The notes: a model not told the origin generated them from the sequence alone. 64,000 bases of DNA from an uncultured bacterium (GCA_937889595.1 CALAOR010000032.1:1-64000), one strand, 5' to 3'; positions 5,075 through 42,986 are shown, numbered from the stretch's first letter. A program made the numbers and translations.

Positions 5075-5103
5075 TTGACATTATGAACTTTAAAGTTTAT
5101 AGT
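5075..5103 (+). promoter_or_regulatory. Toxin-antitoxin promoter with palindromic operator
   Basis: TTGACA (5075-5080) and TATAGT (5098-5103) have the ideal 17-base spacing. The spacer contains the perfect palindrome AACTTTAAAGTT (5086-5097), extendable to about 20 imperfect bases. Autoregulation by the antitoxin or the toxin-antitoxin complex at this site is typical for such loci and is inferred here. Confidence 0.8.
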
Positions 5104-5139: not shown

Positions 5140-5490
5140 GTGGGCGAATATTATTATATGTTTTATACGGAAGGAAACAGGTGTTTTGCCGGGGACTTTA
5201 TCTTTGGTTTGAGTGAAAAAGAGCTGGGGAAGGTTAAGTATTATCTTGAGCTTCTTGAATCCAGAGGGCCTATGCTCAGGGAGCCTTATGCTAAAAAACT
5301 CAACGGCAACATATATGAATTGCGGCCGGGCTTTGGGAAGACCGAAATACGGTTGTTTTATTTTTGGGACGGCAATACCGCGTGGTTCGTGCATGGGATT
5401 ATAAAGAAGACCCAAAAGACGCCTGCGGAGGCGTTGCGGATTTCCGGGGAGCGGATGACAAGGTATTTTAAGGCAAAAGCCGGCAGATAA
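5140..5490 (+). CDS. HigB/Gp49-like toxin (RelE/ParE superfamily)
   Basis: A 116-residue protein of the phage-derived Gp49-like / HigB group, usually mRNA-cleaving toxins. Family features are LLESRGPMLREPYAKKL followed by NIYELRPGFGKTEIRLFYF and then a Lys-rich C-terminus with KKTQKTP. The start is GTG at 5140, preceded by TAGAGGGG. It lies 18 bases ahead of an XRE-type antitoxin gene, the toxin-first order usual for higBA. A second copy of this gene near 10.1 kb has lost most of its length, so this copy is probably the only functional toxin of the two. Confidence 0.85.
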   Translation: MGEYYYMFYTEGNRCFAGDFIFGLSEKELGKVKYYLELLESRGPMLREPYAKKLNGNIYELRPGFGKTEIRLFYFWDGNTAWFVHGIIKKTQKTPAEALRISGERMTRYFKAKAGR

Positions 5491-5508: not shown

Positions 5509-5826
5509 ATGAAAAAAACATACGTAGGCAAAGCTGGCAAAGTAAAGGTTTACGGTGCAAACCCCAAGAAATACTTTGATAAACTTATGAAAACCAGCGC
5601 TAATGCGCGCAAAGGTTATGATGAAGAGGTAATGTTTCATCTTGTGGACGGGTTGAACAAAGAGTTGTTAAAAGAACATATAACACCTTACGCCCTGGCG
5701 AAAAAGGCAGGCATAAGGCCGCAGGTCGTAAAAAGGATATTAAACGGCGCCCCTAACGCCGAGGTAAATACCATTTCCAAGATGGGCGAGAGCATGAACC
5801 TGCAATTGTGTTGGCATAAAAAATAG
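5509..5826 (+). CDS. HigA-like XRE antitoxin
   Basis: A 105-residue protein with a C-terminal helix-turn-helix (HITPYALAKKAGIRPQVVKR, residues about 57-76, then ILNG). It follows the toxin gene with an 18-base gap containing AGGAGG. The N-terminal half (KVKVYGANPKKYFDKL) is Lys/Tyr-rich and likely contacts the toxin. A paralogue at 10244-10561 is identical at 96 of 105 positions. It probably neutralises the toxin and represses the promoter at 5075-5103. Confidence 0.85.
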   Translation: MKKTYVGKAGKVKVYGANPKKYFDKLMKTSANARKGYDEEVMFHLVDGLNKELLKEHITPYALAKKAGIRPQVVKRILNGAPNAEVNTISKMGESMNLQLCWHKK

Positions 5827-10069: not shown

Positions 10070-10098
10070 TTGATATTATGAACTTTAAAGTTTATAGT
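10070..10098 (+). promoter_or_regulatory. Promoter-operator of the second toxin-antitoxin copy
   Basis: TTGATA and TATAGT with 17-base spacing and the identical AACTTTAAAGTT palindrome (10081-10092) between them, as at 5075-5103. The conserved palindrome in an otherwise drifting region supports an operator role. Confidence 0.75.
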
Positions 10099-10243: not shown

Positions 10244-10561
10244 ATGAAAAAAACGTACATAGGAAAAACGGGCAAAGTAAAGGTTTATGGAACAAACCCG
10301 AAGAAATACTTTGATAAACTGGTGAAAACCAGCGCTAATGCGCGCAAAGGCTATGATGAAGAGGTAATGCTTCATCTTGTGGACGGATTGAACAAAGAAC
10401 TGCTAAAAGAGCATGTTACACCATACGCCCTGGCGAAAAAAGCAAGCATAAGGCCGCAGGTTGTAAAAAGGATATTAAATGGTGCCACTAATGCCGAGGT
10501 CAATACCATTTCCAAGATGGGCGAGAGCATGAACCTGCAGTTGAGTTGGCATAAAAAATAG
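10244..10561 (+). CDS. Orphan HigA-like antitoxin
   Basis: A 105-residue paralogue of the antitoxin at 5509-5826, differing at nine positions, with the same HTH (TPYALAKKASIRPQVVKR). AGGAGG is present 9 bases upstream. The toxin gene in front is reduced to 92 bases. The protein could still repress both promoters or protect against the intact toxin, because the operator and the interaction half are conserved. That cross-action is inference. Confidence 0.85.
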   Translation: MKKTYIGKTGKVKVYGTNPKKYFDKLVKTSANARKGYDEEVMLHLVDGLNKELLKEHVTPYALAKKASIRPQVVKRILNGATNAEVNTISKMGESMNLQLSWHKK

Positions 10562-13589: not shown

Positions 13590-14585
<996 letters not shown>

Positions 14586-27396: not shown

Positions 27397-27533
27397 GTGC
27401 CCCTCCTGGAAAGGTTTATAATTTAACACAATACGATAAACGCCTGAGAAAATCAATCGAAAAAGGAGGTGTGAAAAAGGAAGGTGTCACACATGTAAGT
27501 GATTGTCAATTGATAGATTTCATCACGCGCGTC

Positions 27534-27562
27534 TTGTAAATCCGGTAGAAATGGATTATAAT
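27534..27562 (+). promoter_or_regulatory. Leaderless-type promoter of LacI regulator 1
   Basis: TTGTAA and TATAAT, 17-base spacer; the -10 ends six bases before the ATG at 27569, and no Shine-Dalgarno is present. The transcript should start at or next to the start codon. Confidence 0.7.
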
Positions 27563-27568
27563 ATCCCC

Positions 27569-28582
27569 ATGAAACTCATAACCATAAAAGACATAGCAAA
27601 AAAAATGGGAATCAGCCATTCGACTGTGTCGAGGTCCATAAATGACGACCCGCAGATCAGCAAAGCGACACGGGACAGGGTCAAGAAAATCATAAATGAG
27701 ATGCATTATTATCCGAACGCGGTAGCGCGCGGCCTGGCGAGGGCGCGATCAAACACAATAGCCGTCGTTACCCCTTCGTTTTTTTCCCCCTTTTCAGTGG
27801 AAATCATGCGCGGCATAGAGCCTGAAATAATCAGGTCCAGGTATGAAATGAATTACCTGTCGCCGCGGAGGTATCTGGATGCGAATTCATGGGGGCTGGA
27901 CAGCATCCTGTATGAGAGAATATTGAATGAAAAAAAGGCGGCCGCAATCATAATAATATCGGGGAACCTGTATGGCGGGAAAAATATTATAGGCAGGTAC
28001 AGGAAAGCGGGGATACATGTGGTGTTCATAGAAGGCGGGGATAAATGGGGGCACAGGGTGCGTTATGACAACGAAGCGGCCGCGGATATGGCTGTAAAAC
28101 ACCTGATCAGCAGGAATCGGAAAAAAATCGGGCTGATGGTCGGTAATGACAGGGTAGTGGAAAGCATGAAAGAAAGGCGGCATGGGTTCGTAAAAGCAAT
28201 GCGGCGGAACGGGCGGGTCGCGGATGAAAATAACATGTTTGTTTTTTATGAGGACAGCCCTGACATACAGCGGGTGGCGCTGGATTTTTTTATTAAAAAT
28301 AAGGTCGACGCTATATACGTAGCGTCCGGAGACAGTGACGCGCAGCGGCTGCTGGATGAAGCCGAAAAATCAGGCATTAAGGTCCCTGACGATATTGCGA
28401 TCATCAGCCAGGACGACATGGCGACGGCCAGTGTCGTAAAATTGACGGCTGTCAGGCAGCCGATCGTTGAAATGGGGAAAAAAGCGATCGAGCTGGCAGT
28501 TTCGGCCATAGAGACAAATAATAAGAAAAACATGAGGGATGAAATATTTTATCCGGAGCTTGTGGTCAGAAAAACAACGTAG
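27569..28582 (+). CDS. LacI-family transcription regulator 1
   Basis: A 337-residue regulator. HTH and hinge: TIKDIAKKMGISHSTVSRSI (5-24) and YYPNAVARGLARARS. The C-terminal part is a sugar-binding-type effector domain (TIAVVTPSFFSPF, then VDAIYVASGDSDA and IISQDDMATA), followed by RQPIVEMGKKAIELA. It closely resembles regulator 2 at 37613-38623. Lying directly upstream of the CE4-like gene, whose promoter contains a CACGTG-centred palindrome, it is a candidate repressor of that gene and of the GH30 genes. A longer reading from 27503 is excluded by the promoter position. Confidence 0.93.
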   Translation: MKLITIKDIAKKMGISHSTVSRSINDDPQISKATRDRVKKIINEMHYYPNAVARGLARARSNTIAVVTPSFFSPFSVEIMRGIEPEIIRSRYEMNYLSPRRYLDANSWGLDSILYERILNEKKAAAIIIISGNLYGGKNIIGRYRKAGIHVVFIEGGDKWGHRVRYDNEAAADMAVKHLISRNRKKIGLMVGNDRVVESMKERRHGFVKAMRRNGRVADENNMFVFYEDSPDIQRVALDFFIKNKVDAIYVASGDSDAQRLLDEAEKSGIKVPDDIAIISQDDMATASVVKLTAVRQPIVEMGKKAIELAVSAIETNNKKNMRDEIFYPELVVRKTT

Positions 28583-28685: not shown

Positions 28686-28714
28686 TTGATTTTTACGCAC
28701 ACGTGTGCGATAAT
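28686..28714 (+). promoter_or_regulatory. Promoter with LacI-type operator (CE4-like gene)
   Basis: TTGATT and GATAAT with a 17-base spacer. The perfect 14-base palindrome CGCACACGTGTGCG occupies 28696-28709, filling the spacer and touching -10. A repressor bound here would block polymerase. Confidence 0.85.
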
Positions 28715-28822
28715 TACATTGGAAATGCATACTAACCAATATGCACTTATGGTCGCAAATGGTTAACCGGTTAAACACAACTTGACCGGATGCCGCCCAA
28801 ATCAAAACCCGCGGAGATTGAT

Positions 28823-31063
28823 ATGAAACGCAAAGAAGACAGTTTAAATTGCCGAAAAGAACTGCAGGTTTTGAAGCTGAAGAAAAGGTCTTCGTTTACA
28901 TGCGTAATGATCATTTCGTTTATTGCGTTGTTTTTCTCAACGGCAGTTTACGGCGCAGACAAACAATACGCGTATACCCTTGATTACTCCGCCTTACCGG
29001 CAGATATATTCAAAAGGCAGATAACCATAAATGTTTCCGTCGGGACCGCGTCATCCACTAATGTCACGGCCGACGGCTCTCCTATAATATGCACATATAC
29101 CGCATCCACAGGAACATGTTCCTTTTCGCTGTCGAAACAGGCAGCCAGCCTCGTTGTAACGGCGGTAAACTGGACCGCCGGCGGCACGGGCGCGGCGACA
29201 AAGGCGACCCTGTTGGATAACAGGAAGTGGGCGTATTCGTTCACGTTCGACGACTGTTATGCCTCAGACTATACGCTTGATCTCCCGTATTTTTCGGCGA
29301 GGAATATGAGGGCAGGCGTGGGCGTCGTGACGAACTGGATAGGCGGCGGAAGTTACCTGAGCAGGACTCAGTTGGACGCGCTTTTTAACGCAGGCTGGAG
29401 CATTTTAAATCATTCAACCAGCCACCCGCAAAGCACCATATCCTGCTCAAACCTGGCCACCTATGTCGGGGCCGCAAAGACCACTTTGGAATCATGGTAC
29501 CCGAACAATTACAAGAATATTTATTTCATCTATCCTTACCTGGAAACCGGATATCAGACGTGTCTTTCCACAGCCGGGTATTTCCGCGGAGCCGAGGATG
29601 TGGACGGCACAAATTATGTGGATACTTTCAGCGCTATAGGCTGGTTTAACCTGTATAGGCACGGGATGTACGCGAATATCTCAACGTCACAGGCGAACGC
29701 GTGGGCCGATACAGCGGCGTCAGACGCAAGACCGCGGTGGATGATAACGTTTACGCACCAGACATATGCAGGCAGCAGCACGCCCGGCACCTACGACACG
29801 AACGAAGCCACGCTTCAGCCCCATATTAATTATGTATACACGACATACGGGGACGGGGGCACCACAAAGAACATGTGGTTCGCGCCGTCAGATGAGGTTT
29901 TGATGTATCTGTTTACAAGGCAATACCTGGTTATAAACGCAGTCTCGGTGCCTACACCCACAAATACTCCGAGCATGCCGACCCCGACGAGGTCCAGGAC
30001 CACGACATTTACCATGACATCCACCCCGACCAGCACCGGGACTTTTACCCAGACGCCGTCATACTCTCGGACAGCGACGCTGACTTTCACAAGGACCATA
30101 TCACCATCGCCTACAAACACCCTGGTCAATACCGCCACTTTCACGGCGACGAGGACGAATTCAGCTTCGCCGACGGCTTCTTTTAGTTCCACGAACACGC
30201 CTGCAAACACGGCGACCCCGGCGAATACGCCGGTGAATACGGCCACGTTGACGGCCACCCGCATATCTTCACCTACTTCTACGGTTAACGCTACGAATAC
30301 GCCGGCCAATACGGCGACATTAACCGGCACTGCGATGAACACGGCCACCAATACGCCGGTTATAACCCCGACAAACTCGTCCACGGCGCAGGCCACGCAG
30401 ACCTATACTCCCCGCGGCACGGCAACTGAGCCGGCGTCCATGACCCCCTCGGCGGTTTTTACAAATACCGGATCACGGACCAGCACGCCTGTTTTAACCA
30501 TGACCAATACGCCTGTATTTTCCACGACCAGCACACAGGTTAATACGCCCACATATACCATGACAGTACAGCCGTCGTTTACCGCTACAAAGATTCCTAC
30601 ACTCACATATACGGTTACGCCTTCGGCCACGGCCACTGCTTCGCAAACTGCCGTCCAGACCGGCACCTTTACACGCACTGTCACGCGGACGGCAACACCT
30701 ACGTATACAACTACCATACCGGCCCCGACAGCCACGAATACAGCCGTGATTGGCGACAAGTTTGAGATAAACAACCCCGTGATTTATCCAAATCCGTATA
30801 GTCTTCATGGGGGAGGACTGATTATAGGAATGGACCTGACGAGGCCTGCCGATAGGATCAACATACGAATATATACGGTTTCATACCGGCAGATTGCGGA
30901 TATAACGGAAAGCGGATATTTTCTCGGCAGGGTCAAGCTGCCTGTCCCGGACAGGTATTTAGACCGGCTCGCGAACGGCATATATTATATGAAGGCGGCA
31001 GGAGAGGGATATGGGAATGAAAAAGCGGTTTCAAAGCCGGTACAGCTGATAATATTAAGGTAG
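28823..31063 (+). CDS. Secreted CE4/NodB-like polysaccharide deacetylase with Thr/Pro linker
   Basis: A 746-residue protein. After a signal segment (about 24-45, FIALFFSTAVYGA) and a small beta domain, the NodB-like domain has SFTFDDC (140-145) and NHSTSH (196-201), giving the Asp and two His metal ligands; canonical TFDDG has Gly in place of Cys145. It may remove acetyl groups from xylan or chitin-like polymers. Residues about 385-645 form a Thr-rich linker full of NTP and TAT units. The last 90 residues (from NPVIYPNPYSL) are the C-terminal module shared with the GH30 enzymes. GGAGATTGAT precedes the ATG. Confidence 0.8.
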   Translation: MKRKEDSLNCRKELQVLKLKKRSSFTCVMIISFIALFFSTAVYGADKQYAYTLDYSALPADIFKRQITINVSVGTASSTNVTADGSPIICTYTASTGTCSFSLSKQAASLVVTAVNWTAGGTGAATKATLLDNRKWAYSFTFDDCYASDYTLDLPYFSARNMRAGVGVVTNWIGGGSYLSRTQLDALFNAGWSILNHSTSHPQSTISCSNLATYVGAAKTTLESWYPNNYKNIYFIYPYLETGYQTCLSTAGYFRGAEDVDGTNYVDTFSAIGWFNLYRHGMYANISTSQANAWADTAASDARPRWMITFTHQTYAGSSTPGTYDTNEATLQPHINYVYTTYGDGGTTKNMWFAPSDEVLMYLFTRQYLVINAVSVPTPTNTPSMPTPTRSRTTTFTMTSTPTSTGTFTQTPSYSRTATLTFTRTISPSPTNTLVNTATFTATRTNSASPTASFSSTNTPANTATPANTPVNTATLTATRISSPTSTVNATNTPANTATLTGTAMNTATNTPVITPTNSSTAQATQTYTPRGTATEPASMTPSAVFTNTGSRTSTPVLTMTNTPVFSTTSTQVNTPTYTMTVQPSFTATKIPTLTYTVTPSATATASQTAVQTGTFTRTVTRTATPTYTTTIPAPTATNTAVIGDKFEINNPVIYPNPYSLHGGGLIIGMDLTRPADRINIRIYTVSYRQIADITESGYFLGRVKLPVPDRYLDRLANGIYYMKAAGEGYGNEKAVSKPVQLIILR
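29950..30745 (+). repeat. Thr/Pro-coding low-complexity tract (CE4-like gene)
   Basis: About 800 bases of irregular ACG/ACN-rich repeats coding for the linker. No exact long period is seen. Open frames on the minus strand here are mirror effects of the codon bias. Confidence 0.7.
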
Positions 31064-31166
31064 ATTAACGGGATTATGCGCCTGAAATTGGAGTTCCAAT
31101 TTAGGGTTTCAGAGGGTTTCAAAGCGGATTGCTAAGGTTGCGGAAACAGGAACACCGGGAGAATTT

Positions 31167-34085
31167 ATGCTCTATACGAAAGGTAATCGAAAGCTACGTA
31201 GTGCAACTATATTTCTGTTTATAATTATTATTAGCGCACCGGCTGTATTGAACGCGTCCAGTTGCGCACCAACTTCGGCGGTACTATGTGCCGCGGTTGA
31301 CGATAACGCTGATATATATGTAAACGGAACTTTTATCGCCAATATTGGATATTGCGATGCAGGCGCGGCCTGCACCCCTGTGTGCATCAATTTAAATACA
31401 ATACAGATGAGTGCCCTGACGGACAACGGGAACGTGATAGCTGTATATGATCAGAATGCGAACTGCTGTGAAGTATGGGCGTCATGGACGCTCGATATAA
31501 CGTGCGGGCCCGGAGCAATGGCGGGAAAACAGGTAATTGTTTCAAACGATAACAGGCCGGTTGACCTGCATTATGACACCACCTGTATGTGCGGAACTAC
31601 ATCGCCGTGCTTGACCCCCAATCCTTCACCGACGCCTCTAGGCGCGTATCAATGGTATAACCCCCTATATGTCGAAACTCCAAGCGCATGGGTGACCCCT
31701 GTCGCTATGACCGGAAAAAAGAACGGAAAAAGGCTGTATGACCCCAGCACAGGGAATCTGCTGACGGCCCTGAGCTATGCAAGCACCATGAGCACAGGGT
31801 GCGGGGCACTATGGTTCAGGGAGGGTTTTAACATGCTGACCACGAACCCGACGCCGGCGGTGCCGCCGCAGTTCACGATCCTAAAATCAGCAACAACTTC
31901 AACCGGCATAATGGGCAACCAGAAGCTGACATTTAATCTTCATGTCTGCAATAACGGCAGCGGGACAGGCGGAAATCCCGTATCCATAGCCGACACATGG
32001 GACCCGACCGACGTGTGGCAGTTCCAGGGTTTTATATCCGGAGGCGCGAATGTCGGATGGAACTTTACGGATATTTATATGGGGAACATTTCGGCATCAT
32101 CGGGCAACGGGCCGCCGACAACTATTACTTTCAATAACGGTTTCCTGGCTAATACATGCTATGACGTATCGTTTATTCTTCAGTCGTTCAGCAATGCGTC
32201 GTTTGGCGCGGTATGGCATAATATAGCGGACCTCAAATACCTGGGCTCGCCCACCATAGAGTCGACGGTGGTTCTACGTAATGCCACGCCGACGGTGACG
32301 CCAACATATACCAGATCGCCGACACCCACTGTGACACGGACTTTTACACCTACCTATACGCCGACCTACACAGCGACACCGACTTTTACTTCAACAAGCA
32401 CGCCGACATATACGCCGACACGGACTTTTACACCTACCTATACGCCGACCTACACAGCGACACCGACTTTTACTTCAACAAGCACGCCGACATATACGCC
32501 GACACGGACTTTTACACCTACCTATACGCCGACCTACACAGCGACACCGACTTTTACTTCAACAAGCACGCCGACATATACGGCTACTTTTACGCCGACA
32601 TTCACGGCAACGAACACGCGCACTTATACGCCGACTTTTACAGCCACACCCACGATCACCGAAACCTCGATGAATACGCCGACGAACACGCCGACCGTGA
32701 CCCCTACATTTACGGCGACAAAGACATTCACGCCGACATTCACGGCAACGAACACGAGCACTTATACGCCGACTTTTACAGCCACACCCACGATCACCGA
32801 AACCTCTATGAATACGCCGACGAACACGCCGACCGTGACCCCGACATTTACGGCGACAAAGACATTCACGCCGACATTCACGCATACAAGCACGATGACG
32901 TTTACGCCGACTTATACCGCAACGCCGACATACACGGCAACCATGACCTTTTCACCTACATTTACATACACGGACACCCTTACATTTACCCCTACGTATA
33001 CAAGCGCATATACGTCCACAGCCACGGAAACTGTTACGCGTACCTATACTTCTTCGCCTACGATAACAATGACCCCTACGATAAAGCCGACCGTAACGCC
33101 GACGCCTCCCATGGCTTATTTGTTAAAGATCTCGGTTTATAACGAGGCAGGGGAACTTGTGCGCGCCATAATTGTTGCCGGCACGTATAACGCGATGACA
33201 AATGTCGTGACCGATATTAACGGCAACCATGCAGCTACAACCCTCGGTTCCAGCGGCTTGATGAATATAACAATACCCGGAGTAGAGCTTGACGGTTCAG
33301 CTTTAAGCGTCACATGGGACTCAAAGACAGACGGCGGGCAGTTAGCCGCGTCAGGCGCGTATATCATCAGGGTTGACCAGGTTGACACATACAAACGCGA
33401 CACGGCCGTGATAATACCCGTGACAGTGATCAGGAACGAAACATACGTGGAACTGGATATATATAACAGCGCCGGAGAACTTGTGAGGTCTATAATTGAT
33501 TATAATTTTGTGTTCCCGCCGGGTTCCGCTCCCGGGCCCGCGGTGGGCGTGAATATGGACGTCCCCGCGCTCATCTTGTCAAATAAGGGCAATGCGGCTC
33601 CGGTTCAGATCAGGTTTGGGACGCCGGTTAATGATTTCATGTTATGGGACGGAAAAAACAACAATGGGATGGCCGTTTCCAGCGGGGTTTATGTGGCGAA
33701 GATCCTGATCAAAACAGAATCTATGCTGATAGCGGTAGCGATAAGCAATGTGACCGTATTGAAGCTGGACAACGTTTTTTTAAGCGGCATTAAAGCCGTG
33801 CCAAATCCGTACGACGGCACAGGAAATGGCATTGAATTGCGCTGGGGAGCAAATGATACGGGAACCGCGGTGATCAGCATATATAATATAAAGGGCGAAC
33901 TTGTAAGCACTATTCACGAAAAGCTTGAAACCGGAAGGGCCATGTGGAATATCACGACATCCAGGGGAAATCAGGTCTCAAACGGATTGTATGTGGCTGT
34001 GCTGCAGGGAGTATCCAGCAGCGGCAACAGGGGGAATTTGAGGATTAAATTATATGTGAACAGAATGCCGGTGTCAACGCAGTAA
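31167..34085 (+). CDS. Secreted Thr/Pro-repeat surface protein
   Basis: A 972-residue exported protein without a recognised enzyme domain. The N-terminal part is Cys-rich ([19 protein letters not shown], a lectin-like or 'choice-of-anchor' type fold) up to about 370. A linker of about 280 residues follows, with exact tandem repeats. Two C-terminal modules follow ([17 protein letters not shown] and [15 protein letters not shown]), then a last one with [13 protein letters not shown], all like FlgD-type Ig or type A sorting modules. It lacks the CACGTG operator of its neighbours. GGGAG lies before the ATG. Likely surface adhesion or display. Confidence 0.65.
32341..32587 (+). repeat. 84-bp tandem repeat, about three copies
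   Basis: A 28-codon unit (CTTTTACACC... start points 32341, 32425, 32509) repeated nearly without change within the surface-protein gene. The near identity suggests recent expansion. Confidence 0.9.
32598..32885 (+). repeat. 138-bp tandem repeat, about two copies
   Basis: A 46-codon unit starting ACATTCACGGCAACGAACAC at 32598 and 32736, with a few silent changes, next to the 84-bp array. Confidence 0.88.
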
Positions 34086-34237
34086 TTTTATTGCACACCA
34101 GAACGGCATCCAAAAAAGGGACCATGGTAATATTGAGATAGAAAAGCAAAATGAGCCGCCCTGCGGCAGCAGGGCAGAAAGGCACCGGGTATTTCGGCGT
34201 CTGTCACAACCGAAAGGGTCAAATTTACGCAAAAAAC

Positions 34238-34266
34238 TTGACTTTTACGCACACGTGTGCGATAAT
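34238..34266 (+). promoter_or_regulatory. Promoter with LacI-type operator (GH30 gene 1)
   Basis: TTGACT and GATAAT, 17-base spacer, with CGCACACGTGTGCG at 34248-34261. Base for base the same spacer as at 28692-28708. Confidence 0.88.
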
Positions 34267-34314
34267 AGATGTGGAACGTTTAAATAAAAATTTATTATGC
34301 GTCAGGAGAGGTAT

Positions 34315-37299
34315 ATGGCGAATAAAATTAATGCTGTAAAAGTGGGACTAGTTGCGGGTATTTTTCTGCTCACCCCTGCGATCATGCAGGCGGCTGCATG
34401 TTCGGTAAACGCAGGGGCTACACACCAGGTCATCAGCGGTTTCGGCGCGTGCAGCCAATGGGTCGAAAGCAAGATCACTGCTGCGCTCGCGACGCAATTC
34501 TGGGCGGACGACAATGTGAACGGCCATGCCGGGCTGTCCATCATACGCATCGGTATTCCACCCCAAGGCAGCAGCAATTGGGCCGCGCCATGCAATTCTG
34601 CTAAACAGGCGCTTGCCATCAATCCTAACATCAAGGTTTTCGCCAGCCCGTGGAGCCCGCCGGCGAACTACAAGAATAACAATTCAACCACAGGCAACAA
34701 CACCGGCAATACCGGCACCAACCCGGGTGGCAACACCAACCAGCTCAACACCTCGCACTACGGCGACTATGCCACTTACCTGACGAACTTTGTCAACACC
34801 TGCAAGAACACCTACGGGTTCAACCTTTACGCGCTTTCTGTCCAGAACGAGCCTGACTACGACACATCTTACGATTCCTGCGTCTGGTCAAACACGACCA
34901 TGGACACATTCATAGGGACCAACCTGGGACCAGCCCTCCAGACTGCCGGCTATACCAACATCATCATGATGCCCGAGTCATTCGCCTGCAATCTGAACAT
35001 GTCCGCCACCACAATGGGCGACGCGAACGCGGCGAAATACGTGAAGGTCATAGGAGAGCACCTGTACGGAGGCGGCCCCAACGCGTTACCTGCCAGCTAC
35101 GCAACCACTGCCGGCCACCCGTTGGAGATGTGGGAAACCGAATATTCGATGAAAACCAGCACTAACGACATAACCAGCGGCATTTTTTACGCGAACTCGC
35201 TTCATAAATGCGTTGTAGACAATAATTACAATGCCTGGTGCTACTGGTGGCTGGTGTTAAGTTCGGGTACCGACGATGAGGGCCTGTGCGACACCAACGG
35301 CACACCGACAAAGAGGCTCTATACCCTGGGCAATTACAGCAAGTTCGTCAGGCCCGGTTACGTGCGCATAGACGCTACAGCGGCGCCGACGTCAGGACTG
35401 CTATGCTCGGCGTACCAGGACCCGGTATCAGGCAAGTTCGCAATAGTCGTCATTAACTCGAGTTCATCGTCCGTAAGCCAGCAGTTTAACCTTAGCGGGC
35501 TTTCTGCGACGACGGTTACGCCGTGGCTCACGGACGCGAGCAACAACCTGGTTGCGCAGTCTGCCGTACCCGTGTCGGCCAATTCGTTTACGTATAACAT
35601 TCCCGCGCAGTGCGTTATAAGCTTCGCGGGGGCAGGCGGGCCCTCGAATACGCCGACACTAACGCTTACCGTTAACCCGGCCTGGACAAAGACCTTTACT
35701 CCCACAGTCACACCCACGGTCAGCAGCATCCTGCTTGACGATATGGAAGACGGCAATAATATAAATAACTGGGGAGGCAACTGGTATTGTTATTCGGGCA
35801 CAGGCACCACAATAACCCCCATACCTTCAAATTATTCCATGACAGCAGGCGGCATGCCCGGGTCACTGCTTTACAGGGCGCAGATCATCGCAACTGTAGC
35901 CGACTACGCCGGACTGGGAACGAACTTAAATTTGGCAGTGACCGCGGTTGACCTGACAAATTATACGGCTGTGGAATTCTGGGTAAAAGGGAACGGGGGT
36001 ACGTACTGGTTCCAGTTCACACAGCCGTCGATCACTGACGGGGACAACTTCGGCGTCTCGTTCACGGCGCCGGCTGCGTGGACAAAAGTGACGGTGCCGA
36101 TCAATGCCGCTTCTTTGAGCCAGCGCGGGTACGGAACCGCGTCTACTTTCACCCAAAACGCGATAGTCGCGCTGCAGTGGGCGAGCAACGCAAACGGCGC
36201 GCTTGACATAGAGGTCGATAATGTCCAGCTCCTGACTAACATGGCTATGACGCCCACGAATTCACCCACTGTTTCGCGTACGCCGACATATACCTTTACA
36301 AGAACGCCTTCAAATACATTTACGAGAACGCCTGTGAACACGCCCACATATACATATACCGTGACAAGGACAAATACGGCGGCAAACACTTTAACGGACA
36401 CGCCTGTCAGCACATTTACATATACAGGCACCTGCACCAGGACGCTGGTCAATACGGCAACAGGCACAAATACGACAACTCCGCCGCCTACCTATACCAA
36501 TACACCCGTCAACACGCCGACATATACAGCGACAAAGACGAACACTCCGGTAAATACAGCCACGAATACGCTCATAACGACTCCAACCAGCACTCCTGCA
36601 GGGACATTGACGAATACGCCCGTGGTCACCCTGACAAATACCCCGTTAAATACCGCAACATCGACATACACTGTCACTGCGCCTCCTTCCAAGACAAATA
36701 CGCCGGTAAATACATCTACCAACACTGTTATTGCAATCCCAACCAGCACACCGCAGGGCACGTTGACAGGGACGCCTGTGGTAACGCTGACAAACACGCG
36801 GGTGAATACGGCAACAAACACAAGTTCGGCCAGTCCGATTTCGACATTTACCATGACGCCGACATGGACCAGAACTTCGACATATACTTCCACACTTACC
36901 GTGACACCGTCATTCACGCCAAGCGGAACGCGCACTCAACAGCCGACAAATACCTGCACGGCGACGAATACGCCTACGCTTGCGCCGTCCGGCCGCACGG
37001 CTATCGAGGATGTGATCATATATCCCAATCCTGTGCCGCTGGACAGTGATTTAAAACTGCTGGTCAGGATATCCGGATGCCCGGCTGAAATAAACCTCCG
37101 CCTTTATACAACCGGATTCAGGCTCGTTACGGATAAAACATGGAAGACAGGCCTTTCATATCCTGTTTCAGATCTGTCCGTGCCGGCAATATATTTAAAC
37201 AAGCTCGCAAACGGGTCGTATTATTATGTGCTTTCACTTACCGGATGCGACAGGACAAAGGCACAAACGAGAAAAGGCGTATTGTTAATGCTCAGATAG
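34315..37299 (+). CDS. GH30 endo-xylanase-like enzyme 1, with carbohydrate-binding-like domain
   Basis: A 994-residue secreted enzyme. Signal peptide to about 27. The GH30 barrel has ISGFGACSQWV, FASPWSPPANYK, the acid/base Glu179 (SVQNEPDY) and the nucleophile probably Glu276 (WETE). Closest in style to subfamily 8 glucuronoxylanases. A C-terminal beta-sandwich of the barrel ends near 440. Residues about 475-640 resemble a CIA30/CBM11-like binding domain (LLDDMEDGNNINNW, then LDIEVDNVQLL). A long Thr-rich linker and the shared C-terminal module (VIIYPNPVPL) follow. GGAGAGG lies 6 bases before ATG 34315. Presumed role: cleavage of xylan outside the cell. Confidence 0.88.
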   Translation: MANKINAVKVGLVAGIFLLTPAIMQAAACSVNAGATHQVISGFGACSQWVESKITAALATQFWADDNVNGHAGLSIIRIGIPPQGSSNWAAPCNSAKQALAINPNIKVFASPWSPPANYKNNNSTTGNNTGNTGTNPGGNTNQLNTSHYGDYATYLTNFVNTCKNTYGFNLYALSVQNEPDYDTSYDSCVWSNTTMDTFIGTNLGPALQTAGYTNIIMMPESFACNLNMSATTMGDANAAKYVKVIGEHLYGGGPNALPASYATTAGHPLEMWETEYSMKTSTNDITSGIFYANSLHKCVVDNNYNAWCYWWLVLSSGTDDEGLCDTNGTPTKRLYTLGNYSKFVRPGYVRIDATAAPTSGLLCSAYQDPVSGKFAIVVINSSSSSVSQQFNLSGLSATTVTPWLTDASNNLVAQSAVPVSANSFTYNIPAQCVISFAGAGGPSNTPTLTLTVNPAWTKTFTPTVTPTVSSILLDDMEDGNNINNWGGNWYCYSGTGTTITPIPSNYSMTAGGMPGSLLYRAQIIATVADYAGLGTNLNLAVTAVDLTNYTAVEFWVKGNGGTYWFQFTQPSITDGDNFGVSFTAPAAWTKVTVPINAASLSQRGYGTASTFTQNAIVALQWASNANGALDIEVDNVQLLTNMAMTPTNSPTVSRTPTYTFTRTPSNTFTRTPVNTPTYTYTVTRTNTAANTLTDTPVSTFTYTGTCTRTLVNTATGTNTTTPPPTYTNTPVNTPTYTATKTNTPVNTATNTLITTPTSTPAGTLTNTPVVTLTNTPLNTATSTYTVTAPPSKTNTPVNTSTNTVIAIPTSTPQGTLTGTPVVTLTNTRVNTATNTSSASPISTFTMTPTWTRTSTYTSTLTVTPSFTPSGTRTQQPTNTCTATNTPTLAPSGRTAIEDVIIYPNPVPLDSDLKLLVRISGCPAEINLRLYTTGFRLVTDKTWKTGLSYPVSDLSVPAIYLNKLANGSYYYVLSLTGCDRTKAQTRKGVLLMLR

Positions 37300-37435
37300 A
37301 TCATGATCAATATAGCGCAGGGATCATAGACCTGAAAATCGCATTGGAGTATGGTTTGCATAAGCTACACTAATAACAAAGGCGTGTAACTTATGCGTAG
37401 ATTATCGGTATAGATAAAATCACCCACCCGGCATC

Positions 37436-37464
37436 TTGCAAATCCAAGTTTATTGTATTATAAT
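37436..37464 (+). promoter_or_regulatory. Promoter of the deleted LacI gene
   Basis: TTGCAA and TATAAT, 17-base spacer, -10 ending six bases before ATG 37471: the same layout as the promoter of regulator 1. It may now drive the intact regulator 2 gene downstream. Confidence 0.65.
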
Positions 37465-37470
37465 ATTACC

Positions 37471-37542
37471 ATGAAACTTTAATCCGTCAAAATGTTTGAT
37501 GAAATTTTATATCCCGGGCTGATGATCATAAAGGCAACTTAA
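37471..37542 (+). pseudogene. Fossil of a LacI-family gene (start and end only)
   Basis: The first codons ATGAAACTT match the start of the two neighbouring regulators. After about 20 bases the sequence becomes DEILYPGLMIIKAT and a stop, matching their last residues (DEIFYPELVIRKTT). About 940 bases of the gene body are gone. The promoter is intact. Confidence 0.75.
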
Positions 37543-37612
37543 AGCCGCAGGATGCACTGCCGGAGGATTCCCGCGCAAAATGGATCCTGCCGGGTAAAAA
37601 AAAGGAGACGGC

Positions 37613-38623
37613 ATGAAACTGACCACCATAAAGGATATAGCAAAAAAACTCGGTATAAGCCATACCACGGTGTCGAGGTCGATCAACAACGCACCGTATA
37701 TAAGCAAGAAAACGAAGGCGCGCGTGCTTAAACTCGCCGAAAAAATGAATTATATTCCGAACCTTGCCGCGAGGGGCCTTGCGCGCGGCAAGTCAAACAC
37801 CATAGCCGTAGTGACCTTTTCATATTTCGGTGTTTTTCCCACGGAGATAATGCGCGGAATAGAACCTGAAATAATAAAAACGAAATACGACATAATTTAT
37901 TACACGACCAACCGGTATACTTACATCGGGACCGCGGGCAAGGAAGCCTATATTTTTGAAAAGATACTGAATGAAAAAAAAGCAGATGCCCTCATAGTGC
38001 TGTCGGGCAAGCTTTACGGGGGAAAAGGTATTATAGACAGGTTCAAAAAAGCCGGTGTTCACCTGGTATTCATCGAAGGCAAGGATACATGGGGCCATCG
38101 CGTGCATTATGACAATAATTACGCATCTGTACTGGCTGTTAACCACCTCATTGAAAGGAAAAGGAAGAAAATAGGGATGCTGACCGGCAATACAGAGGAT
38201 GTGCAGAGTTACAAGGAAAGAAAGGCGGGTTTTATAAAGGCGATGCGCGGACACGGCAGGGAAGGCGCGGAAGGGAATATTTTTGAATACCACGAAGACA
38301 CGCCAGAAATGCATAAAAATGCCCTTAACTTTTTTTTAAGGAACAAGATAGACGCCTTATATGTGGCGTCCGGCGAGGAACACGCGATGAGGATCATCAT
38401 GGAAGCGCAGAAGCTTGGAATAAAAATACCAGGCGACCTGTCCATAATAGGGCAGGACGATACATTTCTTGCGCAGGCCACAGGCATGACCGTTATAAGG
38501 CAGCCGATCGCGGAGATGGGCAGGAAAGCAATAGAGCTCGCGGTCCGGGCAATAGAAGAAAAAGGATTGGCAATGCAGGATGAAATTTTTTATCCGGAGC
38601 TTGTCATAAGAAAAACAACTTAA
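37613..38623 (+). CDS. LacI-family transcription regulator 2
   Basis: A 336-residue regulator with HTH TIKDIAKKLGISHTTVSRSI (5-24), hinge YIPNLAARGLARGKS and a periplasmic-binding-protein-like effector domain with IIGQDDTFLAQA. It is a close paralogue of regulator 1 (27569-28582): the same recognition helix except for one residue, and the same tail. It lies between the two GH30 genes, whose promoters carry CACGTG-centred palindromes, so it probably binds those sites. AAAGGAG lies 6 bases before the ATG, unlike regulator 1, which is leaderless. Confidence 0.93.
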   Translation: MKLTTIKDIAKKLGISHTTVSRSINNAPYISKKTKARVLKLAEKMNYIPNLAARGLARGKSNTIAVVTFSYFGVFPTEIMRGIEPEIIKTKYDIIYYTTNRYTYIGTAGKEAYIFEKILNEKKADALIVLSGKLYGGKGIIDRFKKAGVHLVFIEGKDTWGHRVHYDNNYASVLAVNHLIERKRKKIGMLTGNTEDVQSYKERKAGFIKAMRGHGREGAEGNIFEYHEDTPEMHKNALNFFLRNKIDALYVASGEEHAMRIIMEAQKLGIKIPGDLSIIGQDDTFLAQATGMTVIRQPIAEMGRKAIELAVRAIEEKGLAMQDEIFYPELVIRKTT

Positions 38624-38721
38624 ACGTGTAAGTTCACAGTGCTAAAAATATAAAAAATACATTATTCCATAAACAACCATATAAACAAGGCAATAAATCG
38701 TACAAAAAATCATATATTAAT

Positions 38722-38775
38722 TTGACTTTTACGCACACGTGTGTTATAAATGTACAAAAGAACACGTGTGCGTAA
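38722..38775 (+). promoter_or_regulatory. Promoter with two LacI-type operators (GH30 gene 2)
   Basis: TTGACT and TATAAA, 17-base spacer. Operator 1, CGCACACGTGTGTT (38732-38745), overlaps the spacer and -10. Operator 2, AACACGTGTGCG (38761-38772), lies inverted just past the start point; centres are 27 bases apart. Confidence 0.85.
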
Positions 38776-38821
38776 AAAATAAGGTTGAAAAAATATAAAA
38801 AAAGAAAAAAGAGGTGTTCAA

Positions 38822-41722
38822 ATGAGGAAATGGTTAACCGGTTTACTTGTTCTTCTCACGGCTCTGGCTTCACAGGTTTTTGCAGGAACTGCGACGATCA
38901 ACTCCGCCACAAAATACCAAACGATCTCAGGTTTCGGCGCAAGCAGCCAATGGGTCGAAAGCAAGATCACGTCCTCGCTCGCGACCACTTTCTGGGCGGA
39001 CGATTCCGTGAACGGTCATGCCGGGCTATCCATTATCCGCCTCGGTGTCGACGATTCCGGCAACAGCAACTGGGGTACTGCCTGTGGTTCGGCAACCCAG
39101 GCGCTGAAAATCAACCCAAACGTATTGGTCTTCGCCAGCCCGTGGAGCCCTCCGGCAAAGTGGAAGAACAACAACGCGACCACCGGCAACAATACCGGCA
39201 ACACCAACGGCAACCCTGGCAGCAACACCAACCAGCTCAGCACCTCGCACTACAGCGACTATGCAACTTATCTTACGAACTTCGTCAAAGCCTGCAAGAG
39301 CACTTATGGATTTAACCTTTACGCGTTATCGGTCCAGAACGAGCCTGATTACGATGTCACCTACGACTCCTGCCTCTGGTCCGCTTCGGCCTTTGACAGC
39401 TTCATCGGCACATACCTGGGCCCGACCCTCGCGACCGCTGGCTTCAATAATATAATTATGATGCCCGAGTCGTTCGCGTGCAACATGAGCCTTGCCGCGA
39501 CCACCATGGGCGACGCGAACGCCGCGAAATACGTGAGGGCTGTAGGTCAGCACCTGTACGGCGGCGGGCCAAACCCGATGCCGGCCAGTTATTCCACAAC
39601 TGCCGGCCATACAGTCGAGATGTGGGAGACCGAGACCTCGGAGAAAACCAGCGGCGGCGCCATAGACAGCGGCATCTACTATGCCAACCAGCTTCATAAA
39701 TGCATCGTGGACAATAATTATAACGCTTATTGCTACTGGTGGCTGGTCAACATGAACTCCGATGATGAGGGTCTGTGCGACAGCAGCGGCAACCCGACAA
39801 AGAGGCTCTATACCATAGGTAACTACAGCAAGTTTGTCAAGCCGGGCTACGTGCGCATAGGCGCCACAGAGGCGCCGACGTCAGGCTTAAGCTGCTCGGC
39901 ATACCAGGATCCGAAAACAGGCAAGTTCGCGATAGTCGTAATAAACCAGAATTCGTCGGCCACAAGCCAGCAGTTTAGTCTTAGCGGGATTTCTGCGACG
40001 TCGGTTACGCCCTGGATCACGGACGCGAGCAACAATCTCGTGCAGCAGTCTGCTGTGGCCGTTTCCGGCGGCAGTTTTACCGTTTCGCTGCCTGCGCAGA
40101 GCGTAATGTCCTTCGTAGGCACTTCAGGAGCTGTCACAACGCCGGTTACGACAAATACTTTCACAAAGACGAACACGCCCGTGGCACCGACAAATACTTT
40201 CACAAAGACGAACACACCCGTGGCACCGACAAATACTTTCACAAAAACGAACACGCCCGTAGCGCCGACAAATACTTTCACAAAAACGAACACGCCCGTG
40301 GCGCCGACAAATACTTTCACAAAGACAAACACGCCTGTGGCGCCGACAAATACTTCCACAAAGACGAACACGCCCGTGGCGCCGACAGCGACAATCACGC
40401 AAACAAGTACGCCGATAACACCAACGACAGTGCCTACAAGCATTCCTACTATAGTGCCAACAATAGTCCCGACAGTTGTTCCGACGGATGTTCCGCCAAC
40501 AATAGTCCCGACAGTTATTCCGACAGTTGTGCCGCCAACAATAGTCCCGACAGTTGTTCCGACGGATGTTCCGCCAACAATAGTCCCGACAGTTATTCCG
40601 ACAGTTGTGCCGCCAACAATAGTCCCGACAGTTGTCCCCACAGATGTGCCGCCAACAATAATCCCGACGGTCGTTCCCACAGATGTGCCGCCAACTGTAA
40701 TTCCGACAGCAATTCCCACAAATGTGCCACCAACTGTAATTCCGACAGCAATTCCCACAAATGTGCCGCCAACTGCAATTCCTACAGCAATTCCCACAAA
40801 TGTGCCGCCAACTGCAATTCCAACAAACAGTCCCACCGTGGTTTTGCCTACAGCGACTTATACATTTACACCGGGAACGGGGATATCTTCAATTGTGATA
40901 AAATTAAGGGAAGGCGATACCAACAACAGTACAAGCAGCCCGCATCCCCAGATACAGGTAATAAACCGCGGAACTGCCGCTTTAAACCTGAACAATGTAG
41001 AAGTAAGATACTGGTTCAACTGCGATTGTACGGGCCAGGCTGTACAGGTATATGTAGACTGGGCGGGAAAAATGCCCCAGGGCCAGACCGTAGGCTCCAA
41101 TGTCCAGGCTTCGGTTGTGCAGGCAAACAGGGGGGGCCAGACCGGTTATTTGAGCTTTAAATTTACGGGCAATATAACATTGCAGCCCAATGAATATGTC
41201 GAGATACAGGCGAGGTTCAATAAATCAGACTGGTCAAACATGACGCAGTCCAATGACTGGAGTTTCTCTAATTCACAGAGCTGGACCGAGTCCATGAAAG
41301 TCACAGGTTATTCCGGCGGGACGCTCGTATGGGGGCAGGAACCTCCTACTTCGCAAACTTTGGTTATGGTTGCGAATGTCATAACATATCCAAATCCCGC
41401 GACATCGGCGAGCGGCGCGACACTCAAGTACACTATCGTGCCTAACAGCAGCGTAAGCGCAGCCGGTACAGATAAGAACATATATGTACCGGACCCTTCC
41501 ACTGTAGTTTATCTGAGGATTTTCACCACCTCGGGCAGGCTGATATGGCAGCAAACTCTTGAAGGGGTTTATTATGTCTCGACAGGCGAGCATTCCGTGA
41601 AATGGAACGGAAGGACAGCCGGAGGGTATGAACTTGCCGCCGGGTCCTATACATTACAGGTCGAATTAAAGGAAAAGAACGGGTCCAGCAAAGGCTTTTT
41701 CACTGTCATAATGTCCAGATAA
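38822..41722 (+). CDS. GH30 endo-xylanase-like enzyme 2, with CBM3
   Basis: A 966-residue secreted enzyme, paralogue of the enzyme at 34315. Signal peptide to about 22; GH30 domain with FASPWSPPAKWK, Glu174 (SVQNEPDY) and Glu271 (WETE). A linker of about 240 residues has two repeat types, TNTFTKTNTPVAP and VPT/VPP-based. Then a family 3 cellulose-binding module (about 690-840: IQVINRGTAALNLNNVEVRY, then SDWSNMTQSNDWSF) and the C-terminal module (VITYPNPATSA). The CBM3 would hold the xylanase on cellulose in plant cell walls. Its own operator pair lies upstream and a terminator downstream. Confidence 0.92.
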   Translation: MRKWLTGLLVLLTALASQVFAGTATINSATKYQTISGFGASSQWVESKITSSLATTFWADDSVNGHAGLSIIRLGVDDSGNSNWGTACGSATQALKINPNVLVFASPWSPPAKWKNNNATTGNNTGNTNGNPGSNTNQLSTSHYSDYATYLTNFVKACKSTYGFNLYALSVQNEPDYDVTYDSCLWSASAFDSFIGTYLGPTLATAGFNNIIMMPESFACNMSLAATTMGDANAAKYVRAVGQHLYGGGPNPMPASYSTTAGHTVEMWETETSEKTSGGAIDSGIYYANQLHKCIVDNNYNAYCYWWLVNMNSDDEGLCDSSGNPTKRLYTIGNYSKFVKPGYVRIGATEAPTSGLSCSAYQDPKTGKFAIVVINQNSSATSQQFSLSGISATSVTPWITDASNNLVQQSAVAVSGGSFTVSLPAQSVMSFVGTSGAVTTPVTTNTFTKTNTPVAPTNTFTKTNTPVAPTNTFTKTNTPVAPTNTFTKTNTPVAPTNTFTKTNTPVAPTNTSTKTNTPVAPTATITQTSTPITPTTVPTSIPTIVPTIVPTVVPTDVPPTIVPTVIPTVVPPTIVPTVVPTDVPPTIVPTVIPTVVPPTIVPTVVPTDVPPTIIPTVVPTDVPPTVIPTAIPTNVPPTVIPTAIPTNVPPTAIPTAIPTNVPPTAIPTNSPTVVLPTATYTFTPGTGISSIVIKLREGDTNNSTSSPHPQIQVINRGTAALNLNNVEVRYWFNCDCTGQAVQVYVDWAGKMPQGQTVGSNVQASVVQANRGGQTGYLSFKFTGNITLQPNEYVEIQARFNKSDWSNMTQSNDWSFSNSQSWTESMKVTGYSGGTLVWGQEPPTSQTLVMVANVITYPNPATSASGATLKYTIVPNSSVSAAGTDKNIYVPDPSTVVYLRIFTTSGRLIWQQTLEGVYYVSTGEHSVKWNGRTAGGYELAAGSYTLQVELKEKNGSSKGFFTVIMSR
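40149..40395 (+). repeat. 39-bp tandem repeat, about six copies
   Basis: A 13-codon unit (ACAAATACTTTCACAAAGAC...) repeated about six times in the linker of GH30 enzyme 2, with mostly silent differences. Confidence 0.9.
40455..40850 (+). repeat. Val-Pro-Thr/Pro tandem repeats
   Basis: Units such as CCAACAATAGTCCCGACAGT alternate in long near-identical blocks (period about 48 and multiples), coding VPPTIVPT-type linker. Copies grade from identical to altered toward the CBM3. Confidence 0.8.
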
Positions 41723-41957: not shown

Positions 41958-42986
41958 ATGAAACAACTTACAATAAAAGACATAGCCGAAAGAGCCGGGG
42001 TGACAAAAGCGACCGTGTCTATGGTCATAAATGATTATAAAAGGATACCCCAGGCGACAAAGGACAGGATCCGGAAAATAATGGAAGAGCTGGATTTCCA
42101 CCCGAATGAATCCGCGCGTGTTCTCGCAAAAGGCAGGACAGAGGCAATAGCGTTCATAGCCACAAGGTACGCGGCGCCTTTTATCTCAAACGTGCTTGAC
42201 TCGCTGGAACAGAGGGCTTTTTACGCCAACAGGTACGTGCAGGGGGTAGTCCCTTACTCGACAAGGAACGAGCAGGAGGTCAAGGAACTTTTTCTTAAAA
42301 AGATCCTGACCGGCAAAAAAGCGGACGCTGTAATAATGCTCACCGTAAAGCCGTCCGAAGAAACAGCCGCGCATTACAAAAAAGCCGGGATACCGCTCGT
42401 TTTGATCGAGAACAGGATGAAAGACGCGCACTCTATCATAATAGACAATTTTTATGGCGCGGAAAAAGCGGCTGCGCATTTCATTAAAACAGGCAGAAAA
42501 AATGCGGGATTGATAGTGGGGGAAGCGATACAGCCGCCGAGCAGGGATATTAATATGCCCGCGATCGACCGCAGGGCAGGGTTCATTTCCGGGCTGAAAA
42601 AACACGGGCTTGAACTTCCGGAAAAAAACATAGAGGTCATTCATGCGTATAATTACGAGGATGGGAAAAGAAGCCTGGATAATTTCCTGAAAAAGGGCGC
42701 GGGCCTTGACGCTGTTTTTTGCGCCGCCGGCGATATGGTCGCGATGGGGCTTTTGGAGCGGGCAAATGAACTCGGCATAAGGATACCTGACGATCTCGCG
42801 GTAATAGGCTTTGATGATGTACTCGCAGCGCGGCATTTGAACCCGCCGCTCACTACCGTGAGGCAGCCGCTCGATGAGATCGGGATAATGGCTTTTGACA
42901 TGGCGATAGATGCAATAGACGGGAAATTAAAGACATTTAAACACATAAAGATCGAACCCGATCTTATCATACGAAAGTCCGCCTGA
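41958..42986 (+). CDS. LacI-family transcription regulator 3
   Basis: A 342-residue regulator. HTH TIKDIAERAGVTKATVSMVI with a recognition helix unlike regulators 1 and 2 (TKATVSMV rather than SH.TVSRS), so it should bind a different operator. Effector domain with VIGFDDVLAARHLNPPLTTV, typical of sugar-responsive LacI proteins. ACGGAGA precedes the ATG. Its stop overlaps the next start (TGATG), so it is translationally coupled to a release-factor-like gene, an unexpected partner. Confidence 0.92.
   Translation: MKQLTIKDIAERAGVTKATVSMVINDYKRIPQATKDRIRKIMEELDFHPNESARVLAKGRTEAIAFIATRYAAPFISNVLDSLEQRAFYANRYVQGVVPYSTRNEQEVKELFLKKILTGKKADAVIMLTVKPSEETAAHYKKAGIPLVLIENRMKDAHSIIIDNFYGAEKAAAHFIKTGRKNAGLIVGEAIQPPSRDINMPAIDRRAGFISGLKKHGLELPEKNIEVIHAYNYEDGKRSLDNFLKKGAGLDAVFCAAGDMVAMGLLERANELGIRIPDDLAVIGFDDVLAARHLNPPLTTVRQPLDEIGIMAFDMAIDAIDGKLKTFKHIKIEPDLIIRKSA

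Follow-up and report, generated by a model that had tools for sequence, protein, structure and literature searches.

A putative LacI-family operator in three secreted-enzyme promoters of an uncultured FCPU426/Goldbacteria bacterium

The locus described here raises the question of why three promoters of secreted-enzyme genes carry a common palindrome between their -35 and -10 boxes, and which protein reads it. The source is a soil/peat bacterium of the candidate phylum FCPU426/Goldbacteria, which is uncultured and for which a cellulose-degrading member has been reported (PMC7031533), and a literature search on regulation in FCPU426/Goldbacteria found no regulatory study. An earlier note on this DNA had proposed a small, self-contained xylan/cellulose response system served by two closely related LacI-family regulators. 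The palindrome probably serves a local LacI-family regulon as its operator, at which LacA and/or LacB would bind and block polymerase until the release of a sugar induces the genes, a reading that draws on the sequence and on what is known of the family. The window is the whole stretch of DNA analyzed (64,000 nucleotides), and all positions are counted from its first letter.

The palindrome and the promoters that carry it

The features of the cluster are as follows, the copies of the palindrome being labeled operator sites 1-4.

27534-27562, plus strand: lacA promoter (TTGTAA-17-TATAAT), no operator copy
27569-28582, plus strand: lacA, LacI-family regulator of 337 aa (Pfam LacI and Peripla_BP_3), recognition helix SHSTVSR
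28686-28714, plus strand: promoter P1 (TTGATT-17-GATAAT), operator in the spacer
28692-28713: operator site 1, TTTACGCACACGTGTGCGATAA, containing the exact 14-bp palindrome at 28696-28709
28763-28774: palindrome of a second type, TTAACCGGTTAA, in the P1 leader
28823-31063, plus strand: secreted polysaccharide deacetylase (PF01522; TFDD and NHSTSH motifs) with a Thr/Pro-rich linker
31167-34085, plus strand: secreted Thr/Pro-repeat protein of 972 aa with a FlgD-like Ig domain, without an operator of its own
34224-34231: bare half-site TTTACGCA near operator site 2
34238-34266, plus strand: promoter P2 (TTGACT-17-GATAAT), operator in the spacer
34244-34265: operator site 2, containing the exact 14-bp palindrome at 34248-34261
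34297-37299, plus strand: GH30a, secreted GH30 xylanase-like protein of 1000 aa (PF02055; best PDB match 5cxp, E 1e-57)
37436-37542, plus strand: LacI relic, promoter TTGCAA-17-TATAAT and a start codon fused to C-terminal codons (MKL*SVKMFDEILYPGLMIIKAT*)
37613-38623, plus strand: lacB, LacI-family regulator of 336 aa, recognition helix SHTTVSR
38722-38750, plus strand: promoter P3 (TTGACT-17-TATAAA)
38728-38745: operator site 3, TTTACGCACACGTGTGTT, with a shortened right half that improves the -10 box
38759-38776: operator site 4, AGAACACGTGTGCGTAAA, in mirrored orientation, with 27 bp between its centre and that of site 3
38822-41722, plus strand: GH30b, secreted GH30 plus CBM3 xylanase-like protein (best PDB match 5cxp, E 4e-63)
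38834-38845: palindrome TTAACCGGTTTA, a one-mismatch copy of TTAACCGGTTAA, inside the first codons of GH30b
41958-42986, plus strand: lacC, third LacI-family regulator with a distinct helix (TKATVSM), conserved beside the GH30b orthologue

Promoter P1 leads to the deacetylase gene, P2 to GH30a, and P3 to GH30b; the gene for the 972-aa protein is probably co-transcribed from P1. GH30a and GH30b (~71% identical) both display the hallmarks of GH30 xylanases, namely the TIM barrel (PF02055) and both catalytic glutamates (QNEP and WETE). A glucuronate-binding loop is characteristic of the XynC-type GH30_8 glucuronoxylanases; the loop after WW in the two enzymes differs from the XynC type, and their best match is 5cxp, not XynC. 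The proposed link to xylan is supported by these two GH30 enzymes, which are nearest to solved GH30 xylanases and one of which carries a CBM3. Every secreted protein encoded at 28823-41722 of the window has long Thr/Pro-rich repeat linkers, which are likewise found in relatives' genes.

The placement of the palindrome in the spacer of three secreted-enzyme promoters is borne out: sites 1-3 (at 28696, 34248, and 38732) each occupy the 17-bp -35/-10 spacer of P1, P2, and P3, respectively, and the common TTGAnT-17-nATAAw architecture is present at all three as claimed. The copies at 28696-28709 and 34248-34261 are exact (CGCACACGTGTGCG, a 14-bp palindrome), but the copy at 38732-38745 (CGCACACGTGTGTT) is imperfect, with two mismatches to the 14-mer and a palindromic core of 10 bp. 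The inverted second site, which had been given as 38761, is found as a mirrored 14-mer at 38759-38772 (AGAACACGTGTGCG, or TTTACGCACACGTGTT when read on the minus strand), with two mismatches and an 8-bp core. A longer string, TTTACGCACACGTGTG, has three exact copies, and its mirrored copy at 38761-38776 (minus strand) is one mismatch off. The palindrome is even with a central CG (halves CGCACAC and GTGTGCG; extended half TTTACGCACAC), as is typical of LacI-regulon operators, and it likewise lies close to the start of carbohydrate genes that adjoin a regulator gene, the distance from the end of the main site to the start codon being 114 bp for the deacetylase, 36 bp for GH30a, and 77 bp for GH30b.

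Elsewhere in the window, two near-identical promoters (5075-5103 and 10070-10098; TTGACA/TTGATA-17-TATAGT) contain a different palindrome, AACTTTAAAGTT, in the spacer. The first leads to a Gp49/HigB-like toxin gene (5140-5490; PF05973) followed by a likely antitoxin gene (5509-5826); at the second copy the toxin gene is broken and the antitoxin gene is intact (10244-10561). From their sequence, these look like promoters of a duplicated toxin-antitoxin operon with an autoregulatory operator.

Rarity of the site and constraint on the promoter box

Within the window, allowing as many as three mismatches to the 14-mer gave five matches, an unremarkable level that was reached in 6 of 100 shuffles. 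The genome search that had been suggested for listing the full regulon was run as pattern searches of 3,420,853 bases (99% complete), using a 16-bp pattern because a perfect 22-bp palindrome pattern missed site 3 (four mismatches). Exact TTTACGCACACGTGTG was seen three times genome-wide versus ~0.002 times expected, and matches to the 16-mer with zero to two mismatches on both strands of the whole genome occur only at the four cluster sites, which dispels the concern that the site might be frequent in unrelated promoters. The regulon is limited to the three promoters. At three mismatches, the genome contains 16 matches compared with 14 for the reversed-pattern control; the two that were inspected (C81:34086 and C93:1024) lie inside unrelated coding genes and were rejected as regulon members.

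A box of ~28 bp aligned on the operator is 89-96% identical among the three promoters, while the flanks on both sides are only 20-35% identical, unalignable, and at the level of unrelated DNA, and the GH30a and GH30b genes are 78% identical in DNA. These values indicate that the box was conserved while its surroundings were lost, and the identity of the box argues for selection, not recent copying. The cluster was built by duplication (e.g., lacA and lacB at 59% identity, GH30a and GH30b at ~71%, and the relic before lacB), and the common box could on that account be merely a remnant of a recently duplicated promoter segment that holds no regulator site. We consider this highly improbable: the abrupt end of identity at the box edges, with flanks at random level, argues strongly against it, unconstrained DNA is unlikely to be palindromic, and symmetry is kept despite letter changes in the paralogous and sister promoters.

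With up to one mismatch, the second palindrome, TTAACCGGTTAA, occurs at 21 places genome-wide, the control at 3; of the 15 places examined, several precede genes for other secreted proteins and several are within coding genes. Its places include G000 C8:10388 and C76:174622. Upstream of the GH30 promoters at C8, C273, and C202, a related element, TTTACCGGTTAA, has been conserved. The recurrence of TTAACCGGTTAA suggests that another regulator probably overlays the regulon, TTAACCGGTTAA being the probable operator of this second, wider regulator. The cluster is therefore unlikely to be self-contained, and this part of the original proposal fails, since the element lies in or near two of the cluster's leaders, is present in the sister GH30 promoters, and turns up again ahead of genes for other secreted proteins.

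Candidate binders and related LacI-GH30 modules

All three regulators contain PF00356 and PF13377 above cut-off, with an N-terminal LacI helix-turn-helix followed by a sensor domain of the periplasmic-binding-protein type, and belong to the LacI family. LacA and LacB are indeed related (59% identical), but the earlier count of two was wrong: a third regulator, LacC (34% identical to them), and a relic are also present. The called lacA open reading frame begins with TTG at 27503, and the ATG at 27569 comes after the -10 box; the coding remnant of the relic (37471-37542), which also gave BLAST matches, lies directly before lacB. The lacA/lacB and GH30a/GH30b paralogues and the relic suggest that the cluster grew by duplication and loss. 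No operator was found at the regulator genes' own promoters (27534-27562 and 37436-37464), leaving no sign of autoregulation there, and the level of LacA and LacB should thus not depend on the same switch.

The genome contains 24 LacI-like matches, of which four (LacA, LacB, C37:2675, and C8:9218) form a close clade. The recognition helix H-x-T-V-S-R is present in all four clade members and absent from the 12 other LacI proteins of this genome that were read, one of which (L031) departs from it only at the last residue. Each of the four clade genes has a nearby promoter with a palindrome of the LacA/LacB-operator class: the C37 module contains AACACAAGTGTT within the spacer and GCGCACGTGCGC downstream, and the C8 module contains TTCACGTGTAA upstream and AAACGTGTGCA downstream of its GH30 promoter. 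LacA and LacB are, by these correspondences, the likely binders of the operator. With so many LacI-like proteins in the genome, the palindrome could instead be bound by LacC, by one of ~20 other LacI proteins, or by a non-LacI factor, LacA and LacB acting elsewhere; lacC is conserved next to the GH30b orthologue in the same-genus genome, and the second palindrome suggests the action of several regulators at the cluster. This arrangement is quite unlikely, given that the recognition helices of LacC and of the other LacI proteins read are different and that the palindrome class follows the LacA/LacB clade, even where the neighbouring genes are not the same, as at C8 and C37.

Scanning GTDB genome contigs for lacB yielded one close relative only, in a same-genus FCPU426 genome (FCPU426 bacterium palsa_1178; G003), plus two remote LacI proteins. 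In G003, orthologues of lacB, GH30b, and lacC occur together; the GH30 protein is 82% identical, its promoter has CACACGTGTG, and TGCAAACGTTTGCAAACACACGTGTGCA is located after the -10 box. The G003 orthologues of the C8 LacI-GH30 pair retain GCAAACGTGTGCA. Overall, diverged palindromes were found in promoters, mostly of GH30 genes, near both other clade members in the cluster's own genome and near two of three in G003. The surroundings of the LacI relatives in G001 (two), G003:C101, and G037, some of which are on short contigs, showed no recognisable operator.

Exact GCRMACGTKYGC occurs at six places in four family genomes, compared with seven for the reversed control, so that only the locations are informative. 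All five places in G000 and G003 have a clade LacI gene no more than 5 kb away, and the sixth is in G002, a genome without a clade LacI gene; clade LacI neighbourhoods make up ~1% of the sequence in the three genomes carrying the clade. The computed chance of this association (1.5e-10) is too favourable and overstates the case because the pattern was widened after the relatives' sites had been seen. The placement of GCRMACGTKYGC beside clade LacI genes is nonetheless striking.

The promoter regions downstream of LacB (P3) and of the C37 LacI gene show homology along most of their extent, yet both arms of their palindromes have diverged in sequence, with the symmetry and the 27-bp spacing kept. 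Measured between centres, paired palindromes are separated by 27 bp both at P3 and at the C37 counterpart of P3, by 54 bp at C8 and C273, and by 14 at C202. Symmetry and spacing would be maintained in this way by a pair of bound dimers, and the few cases available offer a lead in this direction.

Farther along C37 (G000, L051), two exact copies of TATGAACGTTCATA (14226-14239 and 14282-14295; centres 56 bp apart) precede another GH30 gene, whose promoter resembles the C8 and C273 GH30 promoters. Beyond this pair, no exact copy was found elsewhere in the genome, and looser matches were at control level. The pair is likely the private operator of a different LacI protein.

How occupancy of the sites would affect transcription is inferred from what is known of LacI-type repressors, which normally repress from sites within the spacer or at the start site. 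LacA and/or LacB dimers may sit on sites built from TTTACGCACAC and GTGTGCGTAAA in the -35/-10 spacer; at P3, a second occupied site would also cover the start site. A bound dimer would exclude polymerase from the promoter until a plant-polysaccharide sugar, most likely a xylo-oligosaccharide, releases it, and this release would turn on the deacetylase, the 972-aa protein, and the two GH30 xylanases. Judged from sequence, an activator role instead of repression is conceivable. More broadly, LacA and LacB might bind the box other than as a simple block (e.g., by activation at one promoter, or by competition of the paralogues, answering different sugars, for one operator). The presence of two paralogues with near-identical recognition helices for one operator set would fit such a switch, as would the palindrome pairs kept at 27 bp in P3 and its C37 paralogue and at 54 bp in C8/C273. 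It is unlikely, however, given the repression usual for such positions and a geometry set that is small and partly common by descent.

Taking the block by LacA and/or LacB as the preferred reading at this cluster, a tentative and on balance doubtful extension is that paralogous LacI-GH30 modules multiplied and diverged in the phylum as private channels. Each would keep the promoter frame while the letters, number, and spacing (27 or 54 bp) of its operators change with the neighbouring LacI protein, and TTAACCGGTTAA would link the modules into a wider polysaccharide network.

Relation to known systems

The operator of E. coli PurR is ACGCAAACGTTTGCGT, from which the cluster's ACGCACACGTGTGCGT differs only at one position per half, the third base counted from the centre. 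LacB and PurR are relatives within the LacI family, but the targets and effector class of PurR are unrelated, and the score of LacB is higher with CcpA than with PurR. A 16-bp PurR-like palindrome, GCGCAAACGTTTGCGC, was also observed in an intergenic region of G002 (C108:2070-2081; L087 1501-1512), a family member without the LacA/LacB clade.

Known LacI-family regulons combine an even palindrome having a central CG with local control of carbohydrate genes, and autoregulation is common but not obligatory, occurring in 72% of the regulators (PMC4052901). The cluster resembles these local regulons in its CG-centred even palindrome, its regulators adjoining the targets, its few targets, and its carbohydrate genes; it differs in that the promoters of the regulator genes carry no site, two close paralogues accompany a single operator set, and the targets are secreted polysaccharide-degrading enzymes. 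In Clostridium thermocellum, GlyR3 is encoded inside the celC-glyR3-licA operon that it represses, answers laminaribiose, and has the operator TGAACGCGCGTACA (PMC5483248). The likeness is that of a LacI-family repressor beside glycoside hydrolase genes with a palindrome near the start site; unlike GlyR3, LacA and LacB have separate promoters without an operator, and the differing operators set the systems apart. XynR of the Caldicellulosiruptorales is a global xylan regulator of ~26 genes, among them transporter genes and the one encoding XynR itself, with operators of the type GAAANCGNTTTC (PMC12285236). It shares with the cluster LacI-family control of xylanase genes and CG-centred operators, whereas the cluster regulon comprises three promoters and is again distinguished by its operators. 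A literature search on LacI operators inside the promoter spacer found nothing specific.

LacI control of carbohydrate, cellulase, and xylanase genes is thus already known (GlyR3, XynR), and the novelty lies in the operator, in the phylum, and in the multiplication of LacI-GH30 modules. The cluster offers a concrete and testable regulator-operator-enzyme assignment in FCPU426/Goldbacteria, and the paralogous LacI-GH30 modules, with their slightly different operators, form a small natural series for the co-divergence of repressor and operator specificity.
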